Source: Candidatus Bathyarchaeota archaeon (GTDB taxonomy: Archaea > Thermoproteota > Bathyarchaeia > Bathyarchaeales > SOJC01). From it: 64,000 bases of DNA. Made by a program: the position numbers and the translations under genes. Of the stretch, positions 24,624-52,457 are shown in pieces; position 1 is the first letter of the stretch, and every line of letters begins with the position of its first letter. Location: contig JAOUKM010000002.1 in assembly GCA_029882535.1 (NCBI GenBank), positions 1 to 64,000 of the forward strand, given 5' to 3'. The notes under the pieces were generated by a model, which had not been told where the DNA came from, ran no database searches, and saw nothing but the letters and a program-made list of their open reading frames with translations.

Positions 24624-26078
24624 ATGAACAAGAAAATCCTTTTAACAGTACTTGCGTCTGTACTCTTGTTATCATCGATACTTACTACGCAACTCGTAAC
24701 AACCGTAATAGCATCAACTACATATCATGTTTACCCCAGTCAGTCAATTCAAGAAGCAATAAATTCAGCTCAGCCTGGAGATACAATATTTGTTCATTCA
24801 GGAACATACCGCGAGAACCTAATTGTAGACAGGTTTCTAACTCTTCTTGGAGAAAGCGAAGAGACCACCATCGTAGATGGAAGTGGAGAGAACCGAACAG
24901 TTATCGAGGTAACTGCCAATAACGTTTTCATTAGTGGGTTTACTGTACAAAACAGCTCACGCGCAGCAGGCACTTCATATGCAGGCATTAAGATTTCAGC
25001 ACATGCATGTAACATTACTGGTAATCATGTAACAAGAAATAAGATCGGTATCTTTGTGACTTCGCAGAAAAGCAGAATCATGGAGAATGTTGTTACAAGA
25101 AATGGGCAGGGCATAGCACTATATGATTCCTCTGAAGTAATGGTTGAAGCAAACAACCTCTCCGCCAATACAGTGGGCATTTCATTAGCCTTTTCCTCTA
25201 ACAACACAATTGTGGACAATAGAGCTGCGAACAGTTCCTATGGGGGACACGGCATTTACCTATCATCAAATTCCTTCAACAACACGGTTCTCAGTAACGA
25301 TCTTATGAACAACTACCATGGTATATGGCTGTCAAGTTCGTCTAATAACTCAATTGTGGAAAACACCATAGCAAACAACGAACTACTGGGCATCGAACTG
25401 GCCAGTTCTCCCGACAATACCTTTTATCACAACAACTTTATCAACAATCCAAAGCATGTTGTTATTGATACCAAATCAATAAGCATTTGGGATAATGGCT
25501 ATCCTTCTGGAGGAAACTACTGGTACAAGTACATCGATGTCGATGAGAAGAGTGGCCCTAATCAAGACCAACCCAGCAGCGACGGAATATGGGACAATCC
25601 ATATCCTATAAATGAGAACAATCAAGACAGATATCCATCCGTGAAACCTTACGGTGAAATTCCCGATTTAATACTGGACAAAACAAAACCAACTGCAAAT
25701 GCAGGTCCAGATAGAACGGCCAATGTAGGAACACCCATCGCCTTTAATGCAAGCAAATCCACCGACAATGTAGGCATTGTTAGTTATCTTTGGGACTTTG
25801 GTGATGGCACAAACGCCTCAGGCGCTGTCGTAACTCATGACTACGCTATCGATGGAACTTACACCGTGACTTTGACCGTCAAGGATGCGGCAGGAAACTC
25901 TAATACTGACCTAATAAACATAACAGTTGTTACAGTTAAATCACCTCCAGGCTGGATCATAGCAGTAGCTGTGGTGATAGGGACAGCTATCGTAGCCACG
26001 CTATTTTGGAAACATAGTATAGCAAAGACTACCAAAAAGAAAAAGTTGAAAAAGATGCGGTCTCGCAAGCATCGTTGA
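24624..26078 (+). CDS. surface beta-helix (NosD-like) protein with PKD domain and C-terminal anchor
   Basis: The 484-residue protein has a signal peptide (residues 1-31). A right-handed parallel beta-helix of the NosD/PbH1 type follows at about 35-335, visible as repeated G-xx-I-xx-S/N-xx-N steps such as NKIGIFVTSQKSRIMENVV. A single PKD domain at about 355-440 has the signature SYLWDFGDGTNASG. A membrane helix near 445-465 and a strongly basic tail (KKKKLKKMRSRKHR) anchor it with the bulk outside the cell. Beta-helix proteins of this type bind or process carbohydrate or display surface structure. The PKD unit is closely similar to the repeats of the giant protein that follows. Confidence 0.85.
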   Translation: MNKKILLTVLASVLLLSSILTTQLVTTVIASTTYHVYPSQSIQEAINSAQPGDTIFVHSGTYRENLIVDRFLTLLGESEETTIVDGSGENRTVIEVTANNVFISGFTVQNSSRAAGTSYAGIKISAHACNITGNHVTRNKIGIFVTSQKSRIMENVVTRNGQGIALYDSSEVMVEANNLSANTVGISLAFSSNNTIVDNRAANSSYGGHGIYLSSNSFNNTVLSNDLMNNYHGIWLSSSSNNSIVENTIANNELLGIELASSPDNTFYHNNFINNPKHVVIDTKSISIWDNGYPSGGNYWYKYIDVDEKSGPNQDQPSSDGIWDNPYPINENNQDRYPSVKPYGEIPDLILDKTKPTANAGPDRTANVGTPIAFNASKSTDNVGIVSYLWDFGDGTNASGAVVTHDYAIDGTYTVTLTVKDAAGNSNTDLINITVVTVKSPPGWIIAVAVVIGTAIVATLFWKHSIAKTTKKKKLKKMRSRKHR

Positions 26079-26554
26079 TCCAAAAACACTTTTCATCAAT
26101 GTTTAGAAAGTCCATATCTTCCCGAAGTTTTTGACTATTAATACCAGCCTTTTATGCCAATCTCATCGTCTTTTGTTACTATTGCCATTGGACTTCATTC
26201 ACACATGCCTCAGGTAAGAAAGCGAGTGTCGGAAGACATGACATTTCCTAAATCTTAATATTCTTTGCATTGAAGTACACCTTAAACCGTTTTCCAACTC
26301 TAGAAACAGTAGGTTGACATGGACATTCTGGTAAATGTTGACATTCATAGGCATATAGAAGATAAATCCAAAACTCTTTTTACTTTGTATAAGAAGAGTT
26401 TTAGTGCTGAAAGGAGAAAGGAGATTCGTCTGAATGAAAAGAGTAGTGAGGATTTTCGAGAAGCAAATTTTCCGTCCGTATCAGCTGTTCGAAGCACGCC
26501 AGCACTGTCTCCGTCAAAACCCGTATCTTGTAAAAAGAAAGGAGGAGAAGCACC
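26079..26554 (+). promoter_or_regulatory. long leader/intergenic region before the giant PKD gene
   Basis: This 476-bp stretch has a short open frame but no convincing gene. It ends in a strong GGAGGAG ribosome binding site at 26541-26547, placed 7 bp before the TTG start at 26555. I could not identify one clear TATA box. Confidence 0.35.
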
Positions 26555-29500
26555 TTGCATAAGAGAACGCGCATTATGCTCTTTCTAACTGTGCTATTTT
26601 TCTTATTATGGATACCATTGTTGTTCCCTGCCTTGGCATCTCCAGATGCACAAGAATATGATTATGTCGATAACAACACAAGTAACGTAGACGGAGTCGC
26701 AGACCTAGGTACACACTCCAACTTTACAGCTCAACAATACGGTCCAGACTCGATTTATGACACAGTTACAGAAGAAAACACAGGTGGTGGGGGAGTTTCA
26801 ATAGTTCTTGAATCATATTCAATTTATGAAAGCACTGTTGGAGCAACTTCCCATACTGTAGATAAACCGTCAGGTGTCGTTGAAGGCGATTTACTTATTG
26901 CTGTCATGAGCACCGATGGTTCAGGCGAAGACCATACTGCCCCCTTAGGTTGGACAACAATTTTTGAAGATTTCAACACTGGTAGTAGCACCTTCAGTGT
27001 ATGGTATAAAATAGCAGCAACCGAACCAGACAGTTATACATTTACAATTGGGTCATCTGAGTCATGCATTCTCTCTATTTTAAGAATCTCTGGTCATGAC
27101 CCAACCAATCCGATAAACGTGTATGGGAGTCCAGACTCAAATAACAACAACGCTCCTACATGCTCCTCAGTAACCACAACCGTGGATAACTGTCTCATTC
27201 TCCGCATTTTCGGCGCAGACGACGACGACGTAATAGAAGACTCTGGCTATCCATCTGGTCATACTGGTGTTTTTATTAGAGGGTCAGAAGAAGGATGGGG
27301 TGAAACAAGTGCGGGAGTAGCTTATACAAAACAAGCCACAGCAGGAGAAACTGGCATCGCTAGCTTCAGCCTAACCTCCAACGAGCAATGGGGTGCAGTT
27401 ACAATAGCAATTAAACCAACAGCACAAGTAAACTATGAGTTTGATTTAGAAGTGCAGTGGACAAACGCTAATTACACACTGCCAAACGAGGAACTTTGCA
27501 TATTCGGAGGAACGTTGGGGTCAGAAGACATTCAGGTAGACGTTTGGAACGGATCTACATGGCACAATCTTTTCATCGATCTGTCAAGTGGGTGGAACAA
27601 CGTTTCGGTTACCGATTATCTAGTTAGCTCTACGTTCAGCATCAGGTTTATGGGAGGAACAGAAACAGGGGACACTTCTCAGGATAGTTGGGAAATAGAC
27701 TGTACGTTACTACACACATGGGGAGTCCCACCAATAGCTAGTTTCTTCTATGCCCCCGATAACCCTTACACAGGCGAAACAATAACTTTCAATGCTTCGG
27801 GCAGCTATGACCCCGACGGCACTATTGTGAATTATCTTTGGAGCTTTGGAGATGGAACAAACGGTACAGACATGGTCACAACCCACACCTACGCTGACGA
27901 CGGAACATACACAGTGATACTAACTGTAACTGATAACAACGAATTATCCAACACAACAGCTGCAAACGTCACAGTGCTCAATCGGTCTCCAATAGCAATC
28001 TTCACAGAGTCAGCTGAAAATGCATATATTGGTGAGCCGATCACACTCAACGCATCTGATAGTTACGATTTAGATGGCACTATTGCTAGCTACTATTGGG
28101 ACTTTGGTGATGGCACAAACGCCACCGGCGTTGTCGTTAACCATGTTTATGCTACTAATGGAACTTACACCGTGACGCTAACCGTTACAGATGATGATGG
28201 CGCAATAAATTCAGCAAATTCAACAAAGACAATCCTTAAGAATGAGCAACCAGTAGCTTCGTTCTCAGAATCTGCTGAGACGGTTTATACGGATGAAACT
28301 ATAATATTCAACGCGTCCAGTAGCTACGACCCAGATGGCATAATAGTTAGCTATTTCTGGGACTTCGGGGACGGAACTAACGGTACCGGTGTTACGGTTA
28401 ACCATGTATACACAGACGATGGAAACTACACAGTCACACTAACAGTCACGGACAACCGAGGGGCAACTGATTCCACAAACGCCACGAAGACGATTTTAAA
28501 CAGGTCGCCTCTTGCAGGCTTCACCGAGTCAGCCGAAACTGCTTATACAAGTGATGCGATTACCTTCAACGCTTCTTTAAGCTACGATCCTGACGGCTAC
28601 ATCGTTAGCTACTTCTGGGACTTCGGCGACGGCAGCAACGCAACAGAAGCTATTGTAGAACACGCTTATATCGAAAACGGAACCTACATTGTTACATTAA
28701 CCGTTACTGATGATGACGGAGCAACTAACAGTGCCGCTTCAACCAAGACTGTTTGGAATAGACCTCCTATTGCTTTCTTCATAGAATCCACTGAAACTGC
28801 ATACACCAACGAGATAATCATCTTCAACGCATCAGACAGCTATGATCCTGACGGCACTGTAGTTTCATATTTCTGGGATTTCGGAGACGGCACAAACGCT
28901 ACAGGAGTTGTTGTTGACCATGCATACGCCGAGGATGGAAACTACACAGTAAGCCTACTCATAACAGATGACGATGAAGCAACAGCATCAACTAGCGCCA
29001 CCAAAACTGTTTTGAACACCCCTCCTGTAGCTTCATTCACAGAATCCGCAGAGATTGTCTATACAAGCGAGACTATCGCCTTTAACGCTAGCAATAGTTA
29101 CGATTCGGACGGAGCCATCGTTAGTTATTTCTGGGATTTTGGCGATGGAACTAATATCACAGGTGTTGTAGTTGGACATGCCTTTGTTGATAATGGAAAC
29201 TACACCGTGACGCTAACCATAACCGACGATGATGGTGCTACTGGAACTGTTGCCGCAGTTAAGACTGTTTTGAATCGCCCTCCTATTGCCTCGTTCACCG
29301 AGTCTGTTGAAACTGTTGATACTGGCGAGTTTATCATGTTCAATGCGAGTGATAGTTATGATCCAGATGGCTCGATCGTTAGTTATTTCTGGGATTTTGG
29401 CGATGGAAACAATGCCACCGGCGTAATCGTGGAACATGCATACGCTGACGATGGAACCTATGTTGTAACCTTGACAGTTACCGACGACGACGGAACAACA

Positions 29501-32500
29501 GACACAACCACATCAATTAAGACCGCCTTGAATAGACTTCCTGTTACATCTTTTTCAGAGACTGCTGAAACGGTTTACACTGGTGAAACCATAACGTTCA
29601 ACGCTTCTTCAAGCTATGACCCAGATGGAACTATTGTTAGTTACTTCTGGAGTTTCGGAGACGGAACCAACGCCACAGGCGAGATAGTAGAGCACGCATA
29701 TGAAAACGATGGAAACTACACAGTAACCCTGACTGCTACTGATGACGACGGAGCAACAGATAGCACCACTTCAACTAAGACTGTCTTGAATAGACCACCA
29801 GTGGCTTTATTCACCGAATCTGCTGAGACGGTTTATGCTGGCGAGATCATCACGTTTAATGCTTCCAACAGTTATGATTCTGATGGTACTCTAGTTAGTT
29901 ATTTCTGGGATTTTGGCGATGGAAAAAACGGAACTAGCAACGTCATAAATCATGTATACGCTGACGATGGAATCTACACAGTAACTTTAAAAGTCACCGA
30001 TGATGATGGTGGCACAGATTCGAGTAGCGCTACTAAAACAGTTTTGAATAGACCTCCTATTGCAACCTTTACCGAATCAGCAGCAACGGTCTATAAAGGT
30101 GAAATAATCTACTTTAACGCCTCAGACAGTTATGACCCTGATGGATCTATAATTAGTTATTTCTGGGACTTCGGTGACGGCGCAAATGCCACTGGTGTAA
30201 CTGTTGAGCATACTTATGCTAACGATGGGAGCTATACGGTAACTCTGACCGTAACAGACAATGATGGCGCCACTGACACTACCAGCGCAACCAAAACTAT
30301 TTTGAATAGACTTCCCGTTGCCATCTTCACCGAATCCACAGAAACCGCCTATATTGGAGAGATTATAACATTCAACGCATCTGACAGCTATGACCCAGAT
30401 GGCTACATTGTCACTTACTTTTGGGATTTCGGCGATGGAACCAACACTACCGGAATCATTGCAGACCACATCTATTCTACAAATGGAACCTACATTGTAA
30501 CCTTAACTGTAAATGACGATGACGGAGCATCAGACTCGATAGCCTCTACAAAAACAATTCTGCGGAATGAACCCCCTGCTGCAATATACACTGAATCCGC
30601 AGAAACAGTATATACAGCCGAAATAATTTATTTTAACGCCTCTGATAGTTACGATTCTGATGGTTATATTGTTAGTTACTTTTGGGACTTCGGAGATACT
30701 GTTAATGCAACGGGCATAACTGTAAACCATGCCTACGTTGATGACGGTATCTATACAGTAACTTTGACAGTTACTGACAACAGAGGTGCAGCTTCATCAA
30801 CCAACGCCACTAAGACCATTTTAAATAGAGCTGCAATAGCATTGTTCACAGAGTCTGCAGAAACTGTATACACTAGCGAAGCTATCACGTTTAATGCAAC
30901 TGAAAGCTATGATCCAGACGGAACCATACTTGAATACTTCTGGGACTTCGGAGATGGAACAAATGGGACAGGCATAATTGTCGAACACTCCTATACTGAT
31001 AATGGTAGCTACATGGTTACGTTGACGATAACAGATGATGATAGTGCAACCAGCACCGCCACAGCAACCAAGACTGTCTTGAATAGGCCCCCAGTCGCAT
31101 CTTTCACAGAGTCTGCAGAAACTTTGTATACGGGAGAATTCATCACGTTTAACGCCAGTGAAAGCTATGATCCGGATGGATCTATAGCTAGTCACTTCTG
31201 GGATTTTGGCGACGGAACAAACGCTACAGGAGTTGTTGTTGACCATGCATACGCCGAGGATATTATTTATACAGTGACCCTGACTGTTACAGACGATGAT
31301 GGAGCAACGGACTCTGCCTTCAGCACCAAGACTATATTAAACCGTTCTCCAGTGGCTTCTTTCATTGAATCCGCAGAAACAGTATACAACGGTGAAATCA
31401 TAACATTTAATGCTTCCGTGAGCTATGATGCTGACGGCTACATCGTTAGCTACTTTTGGGATTTCGGGGACGGTACAAATGCTACAGGAGTCGTTGTGGA
31501 GCATGCCTATGTGGATCATGGGAATTACACGGTCACTCTAATCGTAACAGATGATGATGGCGCCTTTGCATCTGCAACTGCTACTAAGACTGTCTTGAAT
31601 AGACCGCCAGTGGCATCTTTCACTGAGTCAGCAGAAACCGCCTATACTGGTGAAGTCGTTCTTTTTAATGCTTCAAACAGCTACGACCAAGATGGTATTA
31701 TCGTTAGCTACTTCTGGGATTTTGGGAATGGCAACAATGTCACGGGTGTTGTTGTTGAATATGCTTATGCTGATGATGGGGATTACACGGTAACGCTGAT
31801 CGTCACAGATGATGATGGAGCAACAGGAACCGCTACAGCAACCAAACATATTCTGAATAGATCACCTGTAGCATCCTTCACTGAATCGGCAGAAACAGTA
31901 TACACCTACGAAGTAATCACATTCAATACATCAAGCAGCTATGATCCCGACGGCACTATTGTTAGTTGTTTTTGGGACTTCGGTGACGGAACAAACGCTA
32001 CAGGAGTGGTAGTACAACATGCTTACGCAAATAATGGAAACTACACAGTAACTCTAATAGTTACTGATGATGATGGCACTACAGATTCAACATCGGCTAT
32101 TAAAGCTGTCTTAAACCGACTACCAGTAGCTTCATTTACTGAATCCTCTGAAACTGCATACACCAATGAAATAATCTACTTTAATGCTTCTGATAGTTAT
32201 GATTCTGATGGCACTATTGTTGGGTACTTCTGGGATTTTGGTGATGACACAAACGCTACAGGAACAGTGGTTGAGCATGCTTATGTGGAAGATAGCGTTT
32301 ATACTGTCGTTCTTACTGTAACAGATGATGACGGAGCATCTTCATCAACATCATCCACTAAGACTGTCTTGAATAGACCGCCAGTGGCATCCTTCACCGA
32401 GTCAGCAGAAACAGTTTATACCCACGAGATAATTACTTTCAACGCCTCTGATAGCTACGATCCTGACGGCTACATCGTTGATTATTTCTGGGATTTAGGC

Positions 32501-32782
32501 GACGGCGCTAATGCCACAGGGATGGCCGTAAGCCATGCTTACACTGATGAAGGTGTTTATTCAGTTACTTTAACAGTTACTGACAGCGATGGAGCAACAG
32601 CGTTAGCAAATGCCACTAAGGCTGTCTTAAATAGGCCCCCAGTGGCTTTGTTCACAGAGTCAGCGGAAATTGTGCTTACAGGCGAAACTATACATTTAAT
32701 GCATCAGGCAGTTATGATTCTGACGGCTACATCGTTGATTATTTCTGGGATTTCGGAGACGAAACAAACGCAACTGGTATGA
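26555..32782 (+). CDS. giant PKD-repeat surface protein, N-terminal part (frame broken at 3' end)
   Basis: The frame encodes 2075 residues. A signal peptide (residues 1-26) is followed by an extracellular region of unknown fold to about residue 390, and then PKD repeats of about 86 residues. I count 19 complete repeats by their SYDPDG...WDFGDGTN signatures, joined by conserved TKTVLNRPPVASFTESAE linkers. The reading is disrupted inside repeat 20: near 32,692 the expected ATAACATTTAAT reads ATACATTTAAT, one A short, after which the true continuation is the next frame. Together with 32779-40089 it would encode one protein of about 4,500 residues. PKD domains are extracellular beta-sandwich modules in adhesive, enzyme-linked or S-layer-like proteins. 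The start is TTG with a strong ribosome binding site. Confidence 0.85.
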   Translation: MHKRTRIMLFLTVLFFLLWIPLLFPALASPDAQEYDYVDNNTSNVDGVADLGTHSNFTAQQYGPDSIYDTVTEENTGGGGVSIVLESYSIYESTVGATSHTVDKPSGVVEGDLLIAVMSTDGSGEDHTAPLGWTTIFEDFNTGSSTFSVWYKIAATEPDSYTFTIGSSESCILSILRISGHDPTNPINVYGSPDSNNNNAPTCSSVTTTVDNCLILRIFGADDDDVIEDSGYPSGHTGVFIRGSEEGWGETSAGVAYTKQATAGETGIASFSLTSNEQWGAVTIAIKPTAQVNYEFDLEVQWTNANYTLPNEELCIFGGTLGSEDIQVDVWNGSTWHNLFIDLSSGWNNVSVTDYLVSSTFSIRFMGGTETGDTSQDSWEIDCTLLHTWGVPPIASFFYAPDNPYTGETITFNASGSYDPDGTIVNYLWSFGDGTNGTDMVTTHTYADDGTYTVILTVTDNNELSNTTAANVTVLNRSPIAIFTESAENAYIGEPITLNASDSYDLDGTIASYYWDFGDGTNATGVVVNHVYATNGTYTVTLTVTDDDGAINSANSTKTILKNEQPVASFSESAETVYTDETIIFNASSSYDPDGIIVSYFWDFGDGTNGTGVTVNHVYTDDGNYTVTLTVTDNRGATDSTNATKTILNRSPLAGFTESAETAYTSDAITFNASLSYDPDGYIVSYFWDFGDGSNATEAIVEHAYIENGTYIVTLTVTDDDGATNSAASTKTVWNRPPIAFFIESTETAYTNEIIIFNASDSYDPDGTVVSYFWDFGDGTNATGVVVDHAYAEDGNYTVSLLITDDDEATASTSATKTVLNTPPVASFTESAEIVYTSETIAFNASNSYDSDGAIVSYFWDFGDGTNITGVVVGHAFVDNGNYTVTLTITDDDGATGTVAAVKTVLNRPPIASFTESVETVDTGEFIMFNASDSYDPDGSIVSYFWDFGDGNNATGVIVEHAYADDGTYVVTLTVTDDDGTTDTTTSIKTALNRLPVTSFSETAETVYTGETITFNASSSYDPDGTIVSYFWSFGDGTNATGEIVEHAYENDGNYTVTLTATDDDGATDSTTSTKTVLNRPPVALFTESAETVYAGEIITFNASNSYDSDGTLVSYFWDFGDGKNGTSNVINHVYADDGIYTVTLKVTDDDGGTDSSSATKTVLNRPPIATFTESAATVYKGEIIYFNASDSYDPDGSIISYFWDFGDGANATGVTVEHTYANDGSYTVTLTVTDNDGATDTTSATKTILNRLPVAIFTESTETAYIGEIITFNASDSYDPDGYIVTYFWDFGDGTNTTGIIADHIYSTNGTYIVTLTVNDDDGASDSIASTKTILRNEPPAAIYTESAETVYTAEIIYFNASDSYDSDGYIVSYFWDFGDTVNATGITVNHAYVDDGIYTVTLTVTDNRGAASSTNATKTILNRAAIALFTESAETVYTSEAITFNATESYDPDGTILEYFWDFGDGTNGTGIIVEHSYTDNGSYMVTLTITDDDSATSTATATKTVLNRPPVASFTESAETLYTGEFITFNASESYDPDGSIASHFWDFGDGTNATGVVVDHAYAEDIIYTVTLTVTDDDGATDSAFSTKTILNRSPVASFIESAETVYNGEIITFNASVSYDADGYIVSYFWDFGDGTNATGVVVEHAYVDHGNYTVTLIVTDDDGAFASATATKTVLNRPPVASFTESAETAYTGEVVLFNASNSYDQDGIIVSYFWDFGNGNNVTGVVVEYAYADDGDYTVTLIVTDDDGATGTATATKHILNRSPVASFTESAETVYTYEVITFNTSSSYDPDGTIVSCFWDFGDGTNATGVVVQHAYANNGNYTVTLIVTDDDGTTDSTSAIKAVLNRLPVASFTESSETAYTNEIIYFNASDSYDSDGTIVGYFWDFGDDTNATGTVVEHAYVEDSVYTVVLTVTDDDGASSSTSSTKTVLNRPPVASFTESAETVYTHEIITFNASDSYDPDGYIVDYFWDLGDGANATGMAVSHAYTDEGVYSVTLTVTDSDGATALANATKAVLNRPPVALFTESAEIVLTGETIHLMHQAVMILTATSLIISGISETKQTQLV

Positions 32783-35700
32783 TAACGATGCGTTCTTACG
32801 TGGACGATGGAACGTACACAGTTACATTGACTGTTACAGACGACGACGGAGCGTCAATCTCAACATCGTCCACAAAAACGGTCTTAAACCGACCGCCTGT
32901 ACCATCCTTCGACGAATCTGCTGAGACGGTTTATACTGGCGAGATAATTGCTTTCAACGCCTCTGATAGCTATGATCCTGATGGCTACATCGTTAGCTAC
33001 TTCTGGGACTTTGGCGACGAAACCAACACTAGTGGCATTATAGTGGAACACGCATATGCCAATGATGGAATCTACACAGTAGTTCTAACCGTAACAGATG
33101 ATGATGGAACAACAGATACTGCAACATCAACTAAAACGGTTTTGAACAGAGCGCCTGTGGCAAGTTTCGCGGAATCCGCAGAAACTGTGTACACTGGTGA
33201 GGTTATTACGTTAAATGCAAGCGGTAGCTACGACCCTGACGGATCAATCGTCAGCTACTTCTGGGACTTTGGCGACGGAACCAACGCAGCTGGCGTGATT
33301 GTGGACCACTCGTATGTAGATAACGGTACTTATACAGTCGCCGTGACGGTGACCGATGATGACGGAGTAACCGACACAACTATCTCAACCAAGACTGTGC
33401 TAAACATGCCTCCAGTGGCTTTATTCACCGAATCCGCAGAAACGGTCTATACAAGCGAAGTCATTGCGTTTAATGCTTCAAATAGCTATGACCTCGATGG
33501 CCTCATAGTCATCTATTTCTGGGACTTTGGAGATGGCACCAACGCTACAGGAACAGTGGTTGAGCATGCTTATGAGGAAGATGGCGTCTATACAGTTACT
33601 CTCTCGGTAACCGACAACGATGGAGCAATATCTTCAACATCAGCTATTAAAACTGTTTTGAACAAGCCCCCAGTGGCATCCTTCACCGAATCTGCAGAAA
33701 CCGTGCTTACGGGCGAAATTATCACTTTTGACGCTTTTGATAGTTATGATCCTGACGGCACTATCGTACTCTATTTCTGGAATTTTGGCGACGGAACAAA
33801 TACTACAGGCTTAACTATAGGTCATTCTTATGCAGATGATGGTAACTACACCATAATTCTAACAGTCACTGACAATGATGGAACAACTGCCATTGCTACA
33901 GCTATTAAGACTGTCTTGAATCGCTCCCCTGTCGCAATTTTCACACCGTCTGCAACAGCTGTATATACAAGTCAAATTATTCATTTTGACGGCTCAGGCA
34001 GTTATGATTCTGATGGTGTTATTGCTGAATATTTCTGGAATTTTGGTGATGGTGAAAATGCAACTGGAGTTGTTGTTGAACACACATATGCAGATGACGG
34101 AATTTACATTGTCACTTTAACCGTCACCGATGACGATGGAGCAATAGGAGTAGCTACTGCAACCATACAGGTCTTTAACAGAATCCCCATTGCATCCTTT
34201 ACTGAGTCTGCCGAAACAGTCTACACTAGTGAAACCATAACGTTCAACGCTTCTTTAAGCTACGATCCTGATGGCTACATCGTTAGCTACTTCTGGGACT
34301 TTGGCGACGGAACCAACACTAGTGGCATTATAGTGGAACACGCATATGCCGATGATGGAATCTACACAGTAACTTTAACCATCACTGACAACGACGGAGC
34401 AACAGACACCACAACGGAGACTAAAACCGTCTTGAATAGGCCCCCAGTGGCATCCTTCACCGAATCTGCAGAAACAGTGCTTATCGATGAAGTCATCCGC
34501 TTTAACGCTTCCAACAGCTATGACCCCGACGGCACTATAGCATCCTACTTCTGGAACTTCGGAGATGGAACAAACGCCACAGGCGTTACCACCCAACATG
34601 CGTATTCAAGTAGCGGCGTTTACATAGTTACACTTACGGTTACGGATGTTGATGGTGCAATAGCTACCGCAACAGGAATTAAGACAGTGGAAGTAACGCC
34701 TCCTGTCGCATTATTCACCGAGTCTGCTGAAACAGTCCAAACAGAGGAGATTATTACTTTTAATGCTTCTGACAGCTATGACCCAGATGGGACTATTGTT
34801 AGTTACTTCTGGAACTTCGGAGATGTAACAAACGCTACGGGGGTTACTACCAGCCACTCTTATGCCGACAACGGAAACTACACAGTAACTTTAACCATCA
34901 CCGACGACGACGGAGCAACAGCCACAGCTACTTCAACTAAGACTGTCTTGAATAGACCGCCAGTGGCTTTATTCACCGAATCTGCTGAAACAGTCCAAAC
35001 AGGTGAGATCATATACTTCAATGCTTCTGGCAGCTACGATCCTGACGGCTACATCATTAGCTATTTCTGGGATTTTGGAGATAGTGCCAACGCTACAGGG
35101 GTAACAGTTGAGTATGCCTATGGTGAGAGTGGCACTTACATCGTAACCATGACTGTTACAGACGACGACGGAGCAAACAATATCGTGATGGCCACTAAGC
35201 ATGTGGGAAACACTCCTCCAGTGGCGTCATTCACCGAGTCTGCGGAAATCGTGTATACGGGTGAAACTATCAGTTTTGATGCCAGTGATAGCAATGATCC
35301 CGACGGCACTATTGTTAGTTACTTCTGGGGCTTTGGAGATGGAACAAACGCTACGGGGGTTACTACCAGCCACTCTTATGCCGACAACGGAAACTACACA
35401 GTAACTTTAACCATCACCGACGACGACGGAGCAACAGCCACAGCCTCTGCAGTAAAGACTGTGCTAAACCGAGCTCCCATAGCCAAGTTCACCCAATCTG
35501 CAACGCTGGTGTATACAGGCACGCCGATCTATTTCAATGCCAGTGACAGCTACGACCGTGATGGTATTATTATTGAGTATTTCTGGAATTTTGGTGATGG
35601 TTCTAACGCTACTGGCATAGTGGTAGGTCATGCTTATACTAATGATGGGAATTATACTGTGACTTTAACGGTTACCGACGACGACGGAGCTATGGGTATG

Positions 35701-38700
35701 GCTAGCGGAACCACGAGAGTTTTGAATCGCGCTCCTATCGCAATATTCACCGAGTCCGTCGAAACCGTCTACACCAATGAAATAATTTACTTCAATGCTT
35801 CTGGCAGCTACGATCCTGACGGCTACATCATTAGCTATTTCTGGAATCTTGGCGATGGAACCAATGCTACTGGAATAACCATCGGACACATATACAGTGA
35901 AAATGGAAACTATACTGTTACATTAACGGTTACCGACAATGACGGTGCAACAGGCTCCACTGCCTCTACCAAAGTTGTGCTAAATCGTGCTCCTATCGCA
36001 TCATTCACTGAGTCCGTCGAAACCATCTACACTGGTGAATCCATTACCTTTAACGCTTCGGACAGTTATGATGTCGACGGTACTGTTATCGAGTATTTCT
36101 GGGATTTCGGAGACGGCACAAACGCAACTGGTGTTGTGGTTAGCCATTCATACATTGATAATGGCAACTTCACAGTTACTTTGATAGTCACTGATGATGA
36201 TGACGCTACCAACTCTGCCTCTGCTATCAAGACTGTTTTGAATCGTGCTCCTGTCGCACTATTCACCGAATCTGCTGAATCAGTCCACACAGAGGAGATT
36301 ATTACTTTTAATGCTTCTGACAGCTATGACCCAGATGGGACTATTGTTAGTTACTTCTGGAACTTCGGAGATGGAACAAACGCCACAGGTATGATAGTTG
36401 GCCATGCACACACTGAAGATGGAAACTACACAGTGACATTAACGGTTACTGATGACGACGGTGCAGCTGACAACGCAACGTCGACCAAGACAGTGTTGAA
36501 CAAGCCTCCAGTGGCATCGTTTACCGAGTCTTCCGAGACCGTTTACATTGGCCAGCCTATCATCTTTAACGCCAGTGACAGCTATGACCTAGATGGCACC
36601 ATTATAAGTTACTTCTGGGACTTCGGCGACGGCACAAATGCTACAAGTATTGTCGTAGAACATACCTATTTCATAAACGGAACCTACACGGTTACTCTAA
36701 CAGTCTCAGATGATGATGACGCTTCGGACGCAACTTCAGCCACCAAGACCATTCTTTGGAATGAACAACCTGTAGCTTTATTCACCGAATCTGCAGAAAC
36801 CGTGTATACTGATGAGATCATCTATTTCAATGCCTCAGATAGCTATGACTCCGATGGCAACATAGCTAGTTACTTCTGGGATTTCGGAGACGGCAGCAAT
36901 GCAACGGGTGTTGTTGCTGAACACGCTTATACCGAGGATGGAAACTACACGCTAACACTAACTGTCACAGATAATAAAGGAGCAACAAACACTGCCACTG
37001 CAACCAAAGCGGTGCTGAACAAGTCACCAGTCGCATCATTCACAGAATCGGCAGAAATAGTGTATACCAGCGAGGTTATAGATTTCAACGCTACGGATAG
37101 TTATGATCCAGATGGCTACATTGTAGAGTACTTCTGGGATTTTGGTGATGGCACAAACGCCACCGGCCTTACTATAAGCCATTCCTACAAAGATAACGGA
37201 ACGTATATAGTGATCCTAACTGTTACCGACGATGACGACGCTTATAACTCGACGACTGCCACTAAGACAGCTTTGAATAGCCCCCCTGTTGCAGCCTTCT
37301 CTGAATCTGCAGAAACCACTTACACTAGTCAGCCTATCACATTCAACGCTAGTAACAGTTACGACCCGGATGGCTACATTGCCAGTTATTTCTGGGATTT
37401 CGGAGACGGCACAAACGCAACTGGAATAGTTGCCGAACACGCCTATTCTACAAGCGGAAACTTTACAGTAATGTTAAACGTAACAGATAATGAGGGTAAT
37501 TTTGGTGTATCTACCGCAACCAAGACTATTCTTTGGAACGAGCCCCCTGTTGCATTATTCACAGAATCCGCAGAAACCTTCTATCAAGGCGAAACCATCA
37601 TCTTTAACGCCAGTGACAGCTATGACCTAGATGGCACAATTGTAAGTTACTTCTGGGACTTCGGAGATGGCAGTAATGCAACGGATATGATTGTTGAACA
37701 TATCTATTTAGATCATGGAAACTACACCGTAATGCTCATTGTTACGGATGACATAGGGGCAACAAATACTGCCAATGCAACTAAAACGGTTCTAAACAAG
37801 ATTCCTGTCGTGACGTTTACAGAGTCTACTGAAGCTGTTTATACTGATGAAGTTATTACTTTTAATGCTTCGGCTAGTTATGACCCCGATGGCTTCATTG
37901 TCAGTTACTTCTGGGACTTCGGAGATGGAATGAACGCTGTTGGAGTTATAGTTGAACACGCATATGCTGAAGACGGATCCTATACGGTCACCTTAACCAT
38001 GACTGACGATGATGGAGCAACAAACTCGGCAAGTGCTACTAAAACAGTTTTAAACAGATCTCCAGTGGCGATTTTCTCAATGTCGACTGAAACTGTTTAT
38101 ACTGGTGAAACCATCACATTTAATGCCTCAGATAGCTACGATCCTGACGGCTTCATCGTCATTTACTTCTGGGATTTCGGAGATGGTGACACTGCATCTG
38201 GTTTGATCGTAAATCATGCCTATTCAGATAATGGACGCTACGTTGTGGCTTTAACTGTAACGGATAATGACGCGGCAAAGGACACTGCAACGGCGACCTT
38301 TTTAGTTAGGAACCGGTCTCCAATAGCTAGTTTCGTTGAATCTGCAGAAACCACTTTTGTTGGCATACCCATTGAGTTTGACGCTTCAAGTAGTTATGAC
38401 TCTGATGGCTATGTTGTTAGTTATTTCTGGGATTTCGGAGATGGTGCCAACGCTACTGGAATAGTTGCCGAACACGCCTATTCTGTTAACGGAACTTTCA
38501 CGGTCACGTTGACTGTAACAGACGATAGTGGAGCATTAAATTCCGCACAAGCTGTCAAAACAATCTTGGAAAACGACCTACCGATCGCATCTTTTACAGA
38601 GTCGGCGGAGACAGTTTATGCGAGCGAACCTATCGTCTTTGACGCTTCAAGTAGTTATGACCCTGACGGATCAATCGTCAGCTACTTCTGGGACTTCGGA

Positions 38701-39090
38701 GATGGGACTGGTGCTACAGACATCATCACAAGTCATTCATATGTGGACAATGGAAATTATACAGTGACTTTGATGGTCTTGGACGACAGGGGAGCAAGTG
38801 GTTTCACAACAACTGTTAAGAGTGTTTTGAATAGACCGCCTATTGCATCGTTTACTGAGTCAGCGGAGACTGTATATGCTGGTGAGTCAATTAGTTTTGA
38901 CGCTTCAAGTAGTTATGACCCTGACGGATCAATCGTCAGCTACTTCTGGGACTTCGGAGATGAATTTACTACCTCTGGTGTCATTGTGAACCACGTCTAT
39001 TCCACTAACGGAACCTTCATTGTTACCTTAACGGTAGTGGACGATGATGGAGCCTCTGGTCTAACACAGGCAACTAAGAATCTCCTTCCA
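27720..39090 (+). repeat. tandem array of 44 PKD-coding units (about 258 bp each)
   Basis: The repeat array spans about 11.4 kb. Peptide identity between units is high while codons differ, but a few blocks are nearly identical in DNA. Examples are 34804-34927 against 35320-35445, 32960-33055 against 34270-34370, and 38641-38700 against 38900-38960. This points to recent duplication or gene conversion between units. Confidence 0.85.
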
Positions 39091-40089
39091 GGGGGGATGC
39101 ATGATGTAGCTGTGATCAATGTTACTCCTGCTGCTTCCGACGTTTACAAGGGTCGAATTCTCAACACCACGGTCACCGCCCTCAACCAAGGAACAGTGCC
39201 TGAAACCTTTAACGTCACCCTATACTACTCAGAAATCCGCGGTTGGCACTTAGTTGAGACAGATGGGCGTCTCGTGTGGTATTCCGATGTTGACGCCTCT
39301 GCAAACTTCCTTTTGCTAACTTCAGTCAACATACCTAGCGGTAATTCTGTGTTAGCTTTTGACACGAAATATGACATCGAATTCCTTTGGGATTTTGGCT
39401 TCGTTCAAGTATCTAGGGACGAAGGCATAACATGGGTCTCCTTAGAAAATGCATATACAACATACGACCACGAGTCTAGTGCCGACCAAGACATAATCAC
39501 AAACCTTCCAGGGCTCACTGGAACAAGTCCAAACTGGCCGGAATGGATGACAATGACGTTCAACCTAACAGACTACGCCGGAGAAACAGTATTGTTAGGA
39601 TTCCGCTACATGACTGACGCGGCAACCCTTGGAGAGGGTTGGTACATCGACAACATCAGAGTTAATGGCGATACCATCTCAGATCAAGATTTCGAACAAT
39701 CCAACCCGCTGCCCACTAATGCCATTCAAACACTAACCGTCACCAATCTAGCTCCTGACGGTCAAACGACTTTAATCTTCAGCTGGAACACAACGGGTAT
39801 ACTCAGCGGAAAATATGCCTTAAGCGCAACAGCTGACGCCGTCGCAGGCGAAGTAGACACATCTGATAACACTTATGTTAATAGTATAGTTGAAGTGAAG
39901 AGAAATCCTGATGTCAACGGAGATGGACTTGTAGACATTTACGATGTCGTCGCTGTTACTGGGATCTACGGTTGTCGGGAAGGAGAGGCTGGCTGGAACC
40001 CGAAAGCCGATGTGGTGCAAGATGGAGTAATCAACATCTATGATGTTGTTGCAGTTACAGGCCATTACGGCGAAACTATCCAATATTAG
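32779..40089 (+). CDS. giant PKD-repeat surface protein, C-terminal part with dockerin-like end
   Basis: This is the downstream part of the frame-broken giant gene (2436 residues as an open frame; its own ATG has no supporting start signal). It holds the end of repeat 20 and 24 more PKD repeats, giving 44 in the whole gene. After the repeats come a CARDB-like region (MHDVAVINVTPAASDVYKG), a jelly-roll-like segment around GEGWYIDNIRVNG as seen beside immune-inhibitor-type peptidases, and a second CARDB-like strand region. The C-terminus has two EF-hand-like dockerin repeats, VNGDGLVDIYDVVAVTGIYG and QDGVINIYDVVAVTGHYG. No membrane helix or sortase-type signal follows, so the dockerin-like module may attach the protein to a cohesin partner. 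Confidence 0.85.
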   Translation: MITMRSYVDDGTYTVTLTVTDDDGASISTSSTKTVLNRPPVPSFDESAETVYTGEIIAFNASDSYDPDGYIVSYFWDFGDETNTSGIIVEHAYANDGIYTVVLTVTDDDGTTDTATSTKTVLNRAPVASFAESAETVYTGEVITLNASGSYDPDGSIVSYFWDFGDGTNAAGVIVDHSYVDNGTYTVAVTVTDDDGVTDTTISTKTVLNMPPVALFTESAETVYTSEVIAFNASNSYDLDGLIVIYFWDFGDGTNATGTVVEHAYEEDGVYTVTLSVTDNDGAISSTSAIKTVLNKPPVASFTESAETVLTGEIITFDAFDSYDPDGTIVLYFWNFGDGTNTTGLTIGHSYADDGNYTIILTVTDNDGTTAIATAIKTVLNRSPVAIFTPSATAVYTSQIIHFDGSGSYDSDGVIAEYFWNFGDGENATGVVVEHTYADDGIYIVTLTVTDDDGAIGVATATIQVFNRIPIASFTESAETVYTSETITFNASLSYDPDGYIVSYFWDFGDGTNTSGIIVEHAYADDGIYTVTLTITDNDGATDTTTETKTVLNRPPVASFTESAETVLIDEVIRFNASNSYDPDGTIASYFWNFGDGTNATGVTTQHAYSSSGVYIVTLTVTDVDGAIATATGIKTVEVTPPVALFTESAETVQTEEIITFNASDSYDPDGTIVSYFWNFGDVTNATGVTTSHSYADNGNYTVTLTITDDDGATATATSTKTVLNRPPVALFTESAETVQTGEIIYFNASGSYDPDGYIISYFWDFGDSANATGVTVEYAYGESGTYIVTMTVTDDDGANNIVMATKHVGNTPPVASFTESAEIVYTGETISFDASDSNDPDGTIVSYFWGFGDGTNATGVTTSHSYADNGNYTVTLTITDDDGATATASAVKTVLNRAPIAKFTQSATLVYTGTPIYFNASDSYDRDGIIIEYFWNFGDGSNATGIVVGHAYTNDGNYTVTLTVTDDDGAMGMASGTTRVLNRAPIAIFTESVETVYTNEIIYFNASGSYDPDGYIISYFWNLGDGTNATGITIGHIYSENGNYTVTLTVTDNDGATGSTASTKVVLNRAPIASFTESVETIYTGESITFNASDSYDVDGTVIEYFWDFGDGTNATGVVVSHSYIDNGNFTVTLIVTDDDDATNSASAIKTVLNRAPVALFTESAESVHTEEIITFNASDSYDPDGTIVSYFWNFGDGTNATGMIVGHAHTEDGNYTVTLTVTDDDGAADNATSTKTVLNKPPVASFTESSETVYIGQPIIFNASDSYDLDGTIISYFWDFGDGTNATSIVVEHTYFINGTYTVTLTVSDDDDASDATSATKTILWNEQPVALFTESAETVYTDEIIYFNASDSYDSDGNIASYFWDFGDGSNATGVVAEHAYTEDGNYTLTLTVTDNKGATNTATATKAVLNKSPVASFTESAEIVYTSEVIDFNATDSYDPDGYIVEYFWDFGDGTNATGLTISHSYKDNGTYIVILTVTDDDDAYNSTTATKTALNSPPVAAFSESAETTYTSQPITFNASNSYDPDGYIASYFWDFGDGTNATGIVAEHAYSTSGNFTVMLNVTDNEGNFGVSTATKTILWNEPPVALFTESAETFYQGETIIFNASDSYDLDGTIVSYFWDFGDGSNATDMIVEHIYLDHGNYTVMLIVTDDIGATNTANATKTVLNKIPVVTFTESTEAVYTDEVITFNASASYDPDGFIVSYFWDFGDGMNAVGVIVEHAYAEDGSYTVTLTMTDDDGATNSASATKTVLNRSPVAIFSMSTETVYTGETITFNASDSYDPDGFIVIYFWDFGDGDTASGLIVNHAYSDNGRYVVALTVTDNDAAKDTATATFLVRNRSPIASFVESAETTFVGIPIEFDASSSYDSDGYVVSYFWDFGDGANATGIVAEHAYSVNGTFTVTLTVTDDSGALNSAQAVKTILENDLPIASFTESAETVYASEPIVFDASSSYDPDGSIVSYFWDFGDGTGATDIITSHSYVDNGNYTVTLMVLDDRGASGFTTTVKSVLNRPPIASFTESAETVYAGESISFDASSSYDPDGSIVSYFWDFGDEFTTSGVIVNHVYSTNGTFIVTLTVVDDDGASGLTQATKNLLPGGMHDVAVINVTPAASDVYKGRILNTTVTALNQGTVPETFNVTLYYSEIRGWHLVETDGRLVWYSDVDASANFLLLTSVNIPSGNSVLAFDTKYDIEFLWDFGFVQVSRDEGITWVSLENAYTTYDHESSADQDIITNLPGLTGTSPNWPEWMTMTFNLTDYAGETVLLGFRYMTDAATLGEGWYIDNIRVNGDTISDQDFEQSNPLPTNAIQTLTVTNLAPDGQTTLIFSWNTTGILSGKYALSATADAVAGEVDTSDNTYVNSIVEVKRNPDVNGDGLVDIYDVVAVTGIYGCREGEAGWNPKADVVQDGVINIYDVVAVTGHYGETIQY

Positions 40090-50720: not shown

Positions 50721-52457
50721 CTATTCTCTAAGTCTCAAGATAAGCCCGTCTATTGTTATCCTTGCTTTCTCCCGTCTCTGCAAATCACCTTCAAGGAGTC
50801 GCCGATAGGTTTGAGCAGAAATTTCCCCACGTTTGAATCTGACTTCAATCCGCCTAATATCTGCCTCGATGTTGTCAAGCTCTGTTTCTGCAACTTCAAG
50901 CCGTCTCATCATGTCTGCATACTTCGCTCCACCGCTCATAATTCCCCGCTGCAAGTCTGCCAACTTTTTAGAAAGCGAGGAAAGCCGATTCTCTAGAGTA
51001 ATTTTTCGCACTTTGTACCGTCGCCTAGAAATCTTGCCTTTTCGTGCTTTCTGTTTTATTTGCTCAAGTTCAGAAAGAATCTTCTTCTTATCTTCATAAG
51101 TCTCAACAAATTCGTTCAATGTTTTGCGAGGAACCAAAACTACTGAAACAGATACGGGAGCTTTGGGTCTTTGCCAAGCAAAAGCGATGATGGAGCCAAT
51201 TATAACTAAGGCACTTGTCCAAAGCGTTGGTCGGAAAGACGCCCAAAAAATCGCGTAGCTGTAGGTGAAACTCCATTGTTCATTTTGTAGCCACGTGATG
51301 TTAAAGAGTGAGAGAAAAAGTGTTTCTTGAAAAACACCTCTTTGAATGCTAAATGTTCGCTGTGGGAAAGATTTAACTACAGCGCCTTCTGGGAAAATAA
51401 TCTTTACAGTGAAGGTTTGTGGTATCATCTGCAAGTTTTCAGAGAGGCTAAGTGTCAGCATGTAGCTTTGTGGGTCTTGCTGAACAAGATGGTTTTCTCC
51501 AAAAAGATCGTAGACAACTCTGAAGCTTCTCGACTGATTTTCCACTAAATTAAGCGAAATTTCGTAGGTATTGGTCTCGTTTTCAAGAAGTTCAGCGTTT
51601 AATTTTTTTCCTTGCTCGTCGAAAGCGGAAACATCGCTGCCATCCTTAAGAAGCTGTAGTCTTATGTTGCTAACCGTGAAGGCTGTTTGGCTTTTTAATA
51701 AGAACAGCTCAGATAAGGAAATATGTCCGTTCGTATCTATGGTTATTTCTCGACTCAGTTTACTCACTGAAAAACAAGCAAAATCATCTTTAGTTTTAGA
51801 AGTAAAATTGACCTTTGTGGACATTCGTGCAAAATTTTGAAGGGGGCTTTCCGTGTAATTTAAATAGTAACGTTCACTCTTTTGAGTGGTATTGAAAGGA
51901 AAATCGTTGTCAGTATAATTTGCGTTTTTAGGCAAGATAACAGTAACATTGCACGTAGAAGCATTTTGAGCGAGGCTTGGATATAAAGGAAAATCAACTG
52001 TAAACGTATATTCTGTAGAAGAATCAATTAGGTCTGAAAAAATGAATATCACCGTGAAAGTGTAAGGTTGCCCATTATAAAGCAGGTCACGTACTTCATT
52101 AGGGAAAACTACCGTTACGCCGTAATATCCTACAACTCCCAGACCTGCGTCTAAAATTACATCCAACTGTTCATTGAAGTCTTCAGCATTATAAGCCATA
52201 GAAAAACGAAGGTTTGTTTTGTACTTCAGCGGAAATCCTATTGAAAAGTTCTCTATTGTGGCGTTTTCAGTTGTTGGAGATATTTTTATTGTATCGTTAA
52301 TAAGGAGGATTCCACCATAGATCGGTGTTATTACGTGATCTATCCTGTCGACTTGGATTTGTGAAGGTGAGGTTGCATATGTAGTATGTGGAGAGAGTAA
52401 AAAAATTGAGCCAATTGAAAGGAAGAATATTAATAGGAATAGCGTTGCTTTTTTCAA
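50721..52457 (-). CDS. secreted/membrane-anchored protein with cytoplasmic coiled coil
   Basis: The 578-residue protein begins with a signal peptide (residues 1-28). Its ectodomain to about residue 400 is beta-rich with many NxS/T sequons. A single membrane helix lies near 415-433 (ALVIIGSIIAFAWQR), followed by a basic helical C-terminus of about 145 residues with coiled-coil character. Repeated segments such as RKGKISRRRYKVRKITLENR and KRGEISAQTYRRLLEGDLQR look like two copies of one short helical motif. The layout suggests a sensor or scaffold linking the outside to a cytoplasmic partner. I do not recognise a named family. Confidence 0.75.
   Translation of the reverse strand: MKKATLFLLIFFLSIGSIFLLSPHTTYATSPSQIQVDRIDHVITPIYGGILLINDTIKISPTTENATIENFSIGFPLKYKTNLRFSMAYNAEDFNEQLDVILDAGLGVVGYYGVTVVFPNEVRDLLYNGQPYTFTVIFIFSDLIDSSTEYTFTVDFPLYPSLAQNASTCNVTVILPKNANYTDNDFPFNTTQKSERYYLNYTESPLQNFARMSTKVNFTSKTKDDFACFSVSKLSREITIDTNGHISLSELFLLKSQTAFTVSNIRLQLLKDGSDVSAFDEQGKKLNAELLENETNTYEISLNLVENQSRSFRVVYDLFGENHLVQQDPQSYMLTLSLSENLQMIPQTFTVKIIFPEGAVVKSFPQRTFSIQRGVFQETLFLSLFNITWLQNEQWSFTYSYAIFWASFRPTLWTSALVIIGSIIAFAWQRPKAPVSVSVVLVPRKTLNEFVETYEDKKKILSELEQIKQKARKGKISRRRYKVRKITLENRLSSLSKKLADLQRGIMSGGAKYADMMRRLEVAETELDNIEADIRRIEVRFKRGEISAQTYRRLLEGDLQRREKARITIDGLILRLRE

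Follow-up and report, generated by a model that had tools for sequence, protein, structure and literature searches.

A giant PKD-repeat protein with a type II-like dockerin, a probable stalk client of a cohesin-dockerin system in a Bathyarchaeota archaeon

The giant gene and its broken frame

The window analysed here, a 64,000-nucleotide stretch of a Candidatus Bathyarchaeota genome (1.73 Mb in 83 contigs, 97% complete; genome-wide counts were obtained by searching the contigs), carries at 26555-40089 on the forward strand a single gene interrupted by a one-base deletion. Its features are listed in Table 1 together with those of related genes. An earlier note, made from the sequence of the window alone, had proposed one gene of about 4,500 residues broken by a single frameshift, and this is what repeat spacing and unit alignment support. 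In a DNA-level repeat search, 44 copies of the PKD core were found at a spacing of 258 nt (261 nt at a few junctions), and the array has a sole step of 257 nt, from the copy at 32434 to that at 32691, which locates the loss of one base to about 32690, in unit 20. Alignment of units 19-21 put the missing base at the same place. Past the frame change the repeat sequence is fully preserved in the other frame, and the lesion is therefore either recent or an assembly error.

ORF 1 and ORF 2 overlap by ATGA. Programmed -1 frameshifting was dropped as the default explanation because no slippery heptamer occurs where the two frames overlap. A reading as two genes was rejected, since hydropathy finds no signal-like hydrophobic segment in the second half and intact giants occur in relatives. 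The broken frame is not unique in the genome, as two beta-helix-dockerin genes (Table 1) also lie in several frames, through decay or assembly errors. One base is missing, the ATGA overlap would permit reinitiation and these two further dockerin genes are fragmented, so that the frameshift could be real and the giant a decaying pseudogene or two proteins, of which the dockerin half, having no signal peptide, would never be exported. We regard this as unlikely, because the repeat sequence is intact in both halves and any lesion must be recent, because there is no slippery site, because intact giants exist elsewhere in the order, and because the contigs of relatives are broken in this array too, which in an 83-contig draft suggests a problem of sequencing or assembly.

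The gene immediately upstream of the giant (24624-26078, forward strand) encodes a NosD-type beta-helix protein with one PKD domain and no dockerin, whose C-terminus may hold a membrane segment, to judge from a weak Pfam match. Farther downstream (50721-52457, reverse strand) a coiled-coil protein gave a sub-threshold match to the gas-vesicle family GvpG (28.5 bits against a cut-off of 30.6) that is probably due to chance.

Table 1. Positions of the giant gene, its parts and related genes. Coordinates without a locus prefix are those of the window.
Feature	Position	Strand	Details and basis
Shine-Dalgarno-like AGGAGG	26540..26545	+	9 nt 5' of TTG start; sequence
Giant ORF 1	26555..32782	+	2075 aa until frame lost; TTG start
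Signal-peptide hydrophobic segment	26573..26629	+	residues 7-25; hydropathy
N-terminal region	26639..27721	+	~360 residues; no Pfam or PDB match
PKD stalk	27722..39090	+	44 tandem units of 86 residues; Pfam and DNA repeats
Single-base deletion breaking the frame	32690..32691	+	PKD unit 20
Giant ORF 2	32779..40089	+	2436 aa; frame open from 32635; stop TAG
CARDB, first half	39100..39231	+	own-genome CARDB profile
InhA-like MAM jelly-roll, inside CARDB	39259..39672	+	Pfam
CARDB, second half	39709..39900	+	Pfam and own-genome CARDB profile
Type II-like dockerin, two loop-helix repeats	39901..40086	+	profiles, AF2, Foldseek
Calcium loop 1, DVNGDGLVDIYD	39910..39945	+	canonical ligands at 1, 3, 5, 9, 12; positions 10-11 I-Y
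Calcium loop 2, DVVQDGVINIYD	40009..40044	+	V at 3 (ligand lost); 1, 5, 9, 12 kept; positions 10-11 I-Y
Beta-helix-dockerin gene in pieces (contig C5)	L056:3717-4268 with L025:405-596		
Beta-helix-dockerin gene in pieces (contig C12)	L057:3148-4016		
SBP_bac_5-type protein ending in dockerin (contig C11)	L058:1878-4127		
SBP_bac_5-type protein ending in dockerin (contig C29)	L059:2-2116		
SBP_bac_5-type protein ending in dockerin (contig C25)	L060:4447-6180		
Intact giant of relative G090	L157:1034-15919		4,961 aa, 48 PKD units and dockerin
Intact giant of relative G078	L164:319-14772		4,817 aa, 51 PKD units and dockerin

Organisation of the giant protein

Hydropathy supports the signal peptide that had been proposed for the giant. 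The N-terminal region that follows consists of a conserved 5' piece, an inserted beta-rich domain and a module of about 100 residues that occurs as tandem repeats in other proteins of the order. An AlphaFold2 (AF2) model of the N-terminal domain built from 7 sequences reached a pLDDT of 59, and a Foldseek search with this model gave no usable match (best TM about 0.2).

The 44 units of the stalk are PKD-type repeats, a fold marked by a WDFGDG core. Pfam reports PKD_4 in stretches of 19 and 25 (E reported as 0), with the split unit 20 falling within the second count, so the number of units read originally from the letters is upheld. The stalk is acidic (about 600 D/E vs 100 K/R) and contains about 120 N-glycosylation sequons. 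Could the number 44 be a product of assembly, with strain-variant units joined or collapsed? The assembly is a draft in 83 contigs, and in four relatives the array is interrupted, in three by the end of a contig and in the fourth by a run of N; still, the units differ by ~30 percent in DNA and would be well separated by assemblers, and giants with 48 and 51 units are found intact in other genomes. An artefact of this kind is very unlikely.

Beyond the stalk, the CARDB-like and jelly-roll-like regions of the earlier note both proved real, in a nested arrangement. An InhA-like_MAM jelly-roll (E=1.6e-18 in Pfam) splits the CARDB domain, whose Pfam score is weak because the insertion cuts it in two; a profile built from the genome's own CARDB proteins recovered the two pieces as residues 2108-2151 and 2311-2374 of ORF 2.

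The C-terminal dockerin

In the last 63 residues of the giant lie two F-hand repeats in tandem, each a calcium loop and helix of about 22 residues, DVNGDGLVDIYDVVAVTGIYG and DVVQDGVINIYDVVAVTGHYG. Alone, the tail scored 20.3 bits against Pfam Dockerin_1, just below the cut-off of 22.9. With a leave-one-out profile made from ten of the genome's dockerins, the giant being excluded, it scored 93.9 bits, while the best of 200 shuffled tails reached 11.3. A nine-sequence own-genome profile, which includes the giant itself, matched dockerins in the PDB (5k39, E=2.6e-8; also 2y3n and 2b59). The AF2 model, built with 57 dockerins of this genome and its relatives, had a pLDDT of 96.4 and a pTM of 0.81 with helices at residues 13-20 and 46-53, and the best eleven Foldseek matches in the PDB were all type II dockerin chains (TMq 0.73-0.83, rmsd 1.2-1.8 A). 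Judged by profile and modelled fold, the tail is a genuine type II-like dockerin. Modelling of the tail, which the earlier note had suggested as a check, thus agrees with its claim of two dockerin-type EF-hand repeats. Its other suggestion, to look for calcium-binding positions, gave a divided answer at the sequence level, since loop 1 is complete and loop 2 has lost a ligand at position 3.

That missing ligand, and the fact that archaea commonly have PKD-rich surface proteins that lack dockerins, would suit a vestigial dockerin on a giant that is a free matrix or S-layer-associated adhesin acting through its PKD units alone. We consider this highly improbable, because the recognition positions and helices are preserved and vary in step with the other dockerins of the genome, and because the tail has no membrane segment or other anchor.

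Cohesins, scaffoldin and dockerin clients of the genome

The earlier note had seen no cohesin gene. This is true within the 64-kb window, but the genome encodes ten cohesins by an own-genome profile, six of them over the Pfam cut-off, and the profile matches solved cohesins (3l8q, E=2e-10). The proposed genome-wide search also returned about 17 dockerin sites besides the giant. On contig C8 a scaffoldin of 636 aa combines three cohesins, a CARDB domain and a dockerin of its own, and lies beside cohesin proteins of 807, 1028 and 687 aa. A 356-aa cohesin-PKD protein is encoded on contig C20 and three more cohesin proteins on contig C5. Hydropathy places a hydrophobic segment followed by basic residues at the C-termini of the 807-, 687- and 356-aa proteins, which are putative membrane anchors, whereas in the dockerin clients checked the sole such segment is the N-terminal signal. 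Anchors and clients would be expected to divide the labour in this way.

Among the dockerin clients are a C25 gingipain-like peptidase with cohesin and CARDB, an M14 carboxypeptidase, a C13 peptidase, beta-helix proteins and oligopeptide-binding proteins of the SBP_bac_5 type. A CARDB-dockerin end is common to the giant, the peptidases and the scaffoldin. No carbohydrate-binding module, cellulase or hemicellulase was found among the dockerin and cohesin proteins of the genome scanned with Pfam. In relatives the clients include S8 subtilases, C25 and M14 peptidases, SBP_bac_5 proteins, arylsulfotransferases and beta-propellers. The C25 peptidase occurs in 17/101 relatives, most of which, though not all, have dockerins. 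It was for this reason dropped as an order-wide marker of the system, and the peptidase load is a family trait and not an order-wide rule.

Several details of the clients were observed in passing. Most carry one pair of dockerin repeats, but the legumain-like C13 peptidase (L027:3319-4746, contig C10) has a ladder of dockerin-type repeats. In the dockerins of the three SBP_bac_5-type proteins (Table 1) the calcium loops are degenerate and the IYD recognition motif is intact; the gene on contig C11 has two permease-like genes downstream, and such proteins also occur in relatives (L185, L196, L201). The starts of contigs C35 and C43 (L031, L032/L176) bear almost identical dockerin sequence and belong either to a single gene split between the contigs or to two nearly identical copies.

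Recurrence and co-variation in related genomes

The scaffoldin locus recurs with the same architecture in relatives G012 and G009. Cohesins and dockerins were found together in 35 of 101 related genomes, cohesins only in 12, dockerins only in 10 and neither in 44. The co-occurrence is significant (Fisher p=1.3e-8) and the counts of the two modules correlate (rho 0.77), with the reservation that genome relatedness inflates both significances. One partner only was therefore seen in 22/101 relatives at the threshold used. Both modules were present in 13/13 genomes of the family, and dockerins in 109/257 genomes across the class. A degenerate-pattern scan for cohesin relatives met an alignment too diverse for patterns, and a tail scan of the named genomes found no relative.

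In bacterial dockerins, loop positions 10-11 determine specificity. The giant's dockerin reads IYD in both loops, the motif present in 15/22 dockerin rows of the genome for repeat 1 and 14/22 for repeat 2 (the giant counted), while IFD is absent from repeat 1 and occurs once in repeat 2; the rows that depart from IYD come mostly from the C13 peptidase ladder. In relative G009, 21/24 dockerins carry IFD, as does the giant-tail ortholog. On the evidence of these motifs, the giant's dockerin has drifted along with the dockerin set of its genome.

Syntenic orthologs of the tail occur in G007, G012 and G001, where the contigs break in or near the PKD array, and the G009 ortholog is non-syntenic, behind an N gap. 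Two named relatives lack the giant at the syntenic position, and it is hence not a core part of the system. A neighbouring gene has its nearest named matches, at 72-76% identity, in three Candidatus Bathyarchaeota MAGs. The intact giants of G090 and G078 carry motifs that differ from IYD (VKD/IKD and IDD/VDD, respectively) and match other dockerins of their own genomes, which hints at genome-specific specificities.

Comparison with known systems

Archaeal cohesin-dockerin systems are already known from ANME archaea and Archaeoglobus. In ANME, scaffoldin-like proteins with a dockerin and up to five cohesins have been described and a surface assembly proposed, and dockerins are found on NikA/OppA and TroA substrate-binding proteins (PMC9012536, Chadwick et al. 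2022). With its scaffoldin-like proteins and dockerin-bearing OppA-type receptors, this and the Stygibacter complex described below are the systems closest to ours. The ANME system differs from the present case in the host, in the absence of PKD giants and secreted-peptidase clients from the sections of that account drawn on here, and in the emphasis laid on S-layer attachment and partner bacteria (PMC9012536). For Archaeoglobus fulgidus, which likewise has archaeal cohesin-dockerin pairs, the same source reports binding shown experimentally (Bayer 1999, Haimovitz 2008, per PMC9012536). It also relates that archaea with these domains were formerly thought to be without multi-cohesin scaffoldins; unlike that view, the Bathyarchaeota genome has one.

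Among bacteria, the portion of the Candidatus Stygibacter (Cloacimonadota) report used here describes dockerin-bearing S8 and C25 peptidases, a tandem-cohesin scaffoldin and inferred polypeptide degradation (PMC8542988), all of which resemble the present system. There, in contrast, the scaffoldin carries CBM2/CBM3, GH18 and GH57 enzymes are clients too, and that portion describes no PKD stalk giant (PMC8542988). Type II pairs of the clostridial cellulosome (PDB 5m0y, 2y3n, 2b59, 5k39) share the dockerin fold and cohesin family, and both systems have a scaffoldin with its own dockerin and anchored cohesins, anchoring being predicted here. Unlike in the cellulosome, the clients are peptidases and peptide receptors, the proteins scanned lack carbohydrate-binding modules and cellulases, and the putative anchors are C-terminal membrane segments. 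A cellulosome in the strict sense was rejected on account of these missing modules and enzymes, and for the same reason we say that the assembly works like, not that it is, a cellulosome.

A proposed surface assembly and its significance

The earlier note had suggested that a dockerin on so long a PKD stalk implies a cohesin-based surface assembly. The profile and fold of the dockerin, the cohesins of the same genome, the multi-cohesin scaffoldin, the C-terminal membrane segments of the predicted anchors and the several dockerin clients support this. Neither half of the refutation that the note had set out holds, since the tail matches dockerin profiles and cohesins are present in the genome. 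That these parts belong together is supported by the co-occurrence of the two modules, the recognition motif in common, the CARDB-dockerin end of giant, peptidases and scaffoldin, and the recurrence of the architecture in relatives; cohesin binding by the giant, its localisation, the length of its stalk and the function of its distal domain are what we infer. The giant is probably a secreted stalk client of the archaeon's own cohesin-dockerin surface system. Its signal peptide would export it, and its CARDB/MAM-dockerin end would plug into cohesins at the surface; the cohesins are borne by putatively membrane-anchored proteins and by the three-cohesin scaffoldin with its own dockerin. Since a PKD domain usually spans ~4 nm, 44 of them would form a stalk of about 150-180 nm if extended, holding the N-terminal domain far out, where it would probably catch substrate, a particle or a neighbour cell.

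With so long a stalk the giant might instead bridge to the cohesins of neighbouring cells, its dockerin fold being kept, and serve as a cell-cell or consortium tether and not as a member of a digestive complex; the recognition motif is common to close relatives, and cohesins and dockerins of ANME have been proposed to mediate cell contact (PMC9012536, PMC5244752). This seems to us quite unlikely, as the genome already has putatively anchored cohesins besides its other dockerin sites, many of these dockerins sit on enzymes or transport proteins with the same recognition motif, and the genome-specific drift of the motif (Y vs F) fits self-docking.

As a client of its own cell's cohesins, the giant would stand beside dockerin-bearing C25, M14 and C13 peptidases, which may cut proteins at the cell surface, and beside oligopeptide-binding proteins of ABC transporters that also carry dockerins and may gather the peptides for uptake. 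With peptidase and oligopeptide-binding clients in the same system, the assembly would work like a protein-directed cellulosome. More tentatively, and with somewhat less than even confidence, we propose that Bathyarchaeota place peptidases, oligopeptide receptors and PKD stalks of >100 nm on one cohesin scaffold, and so couple digestion, capture and uptake.

Bathyarchaeota, which rank among the most abundant archaea of sediments, are thought to live on proteins. How protein degradation starts was left open in a 2022 study, in which extracellular peptidases were seemingly absent (PMC9534799), and the deficiency of extracellular peptidases was repeated in a 2023 paper on a cultivated strain (PMC10477458). 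A literature search that was thin on subscription journals found no report that ties dockerins or cohesins to proteolysis in Bathyarchaeota, and no paper on a long stalk component of the PKD-giant type. The PKD giants would add such a component to the cohesin-dockerin system, and the dockerin-bearing secreted peptidases, the cohesins and the dockerin-tagged peptide receptors together suggest a testable answer to how protein degradation starts, at least for this family.
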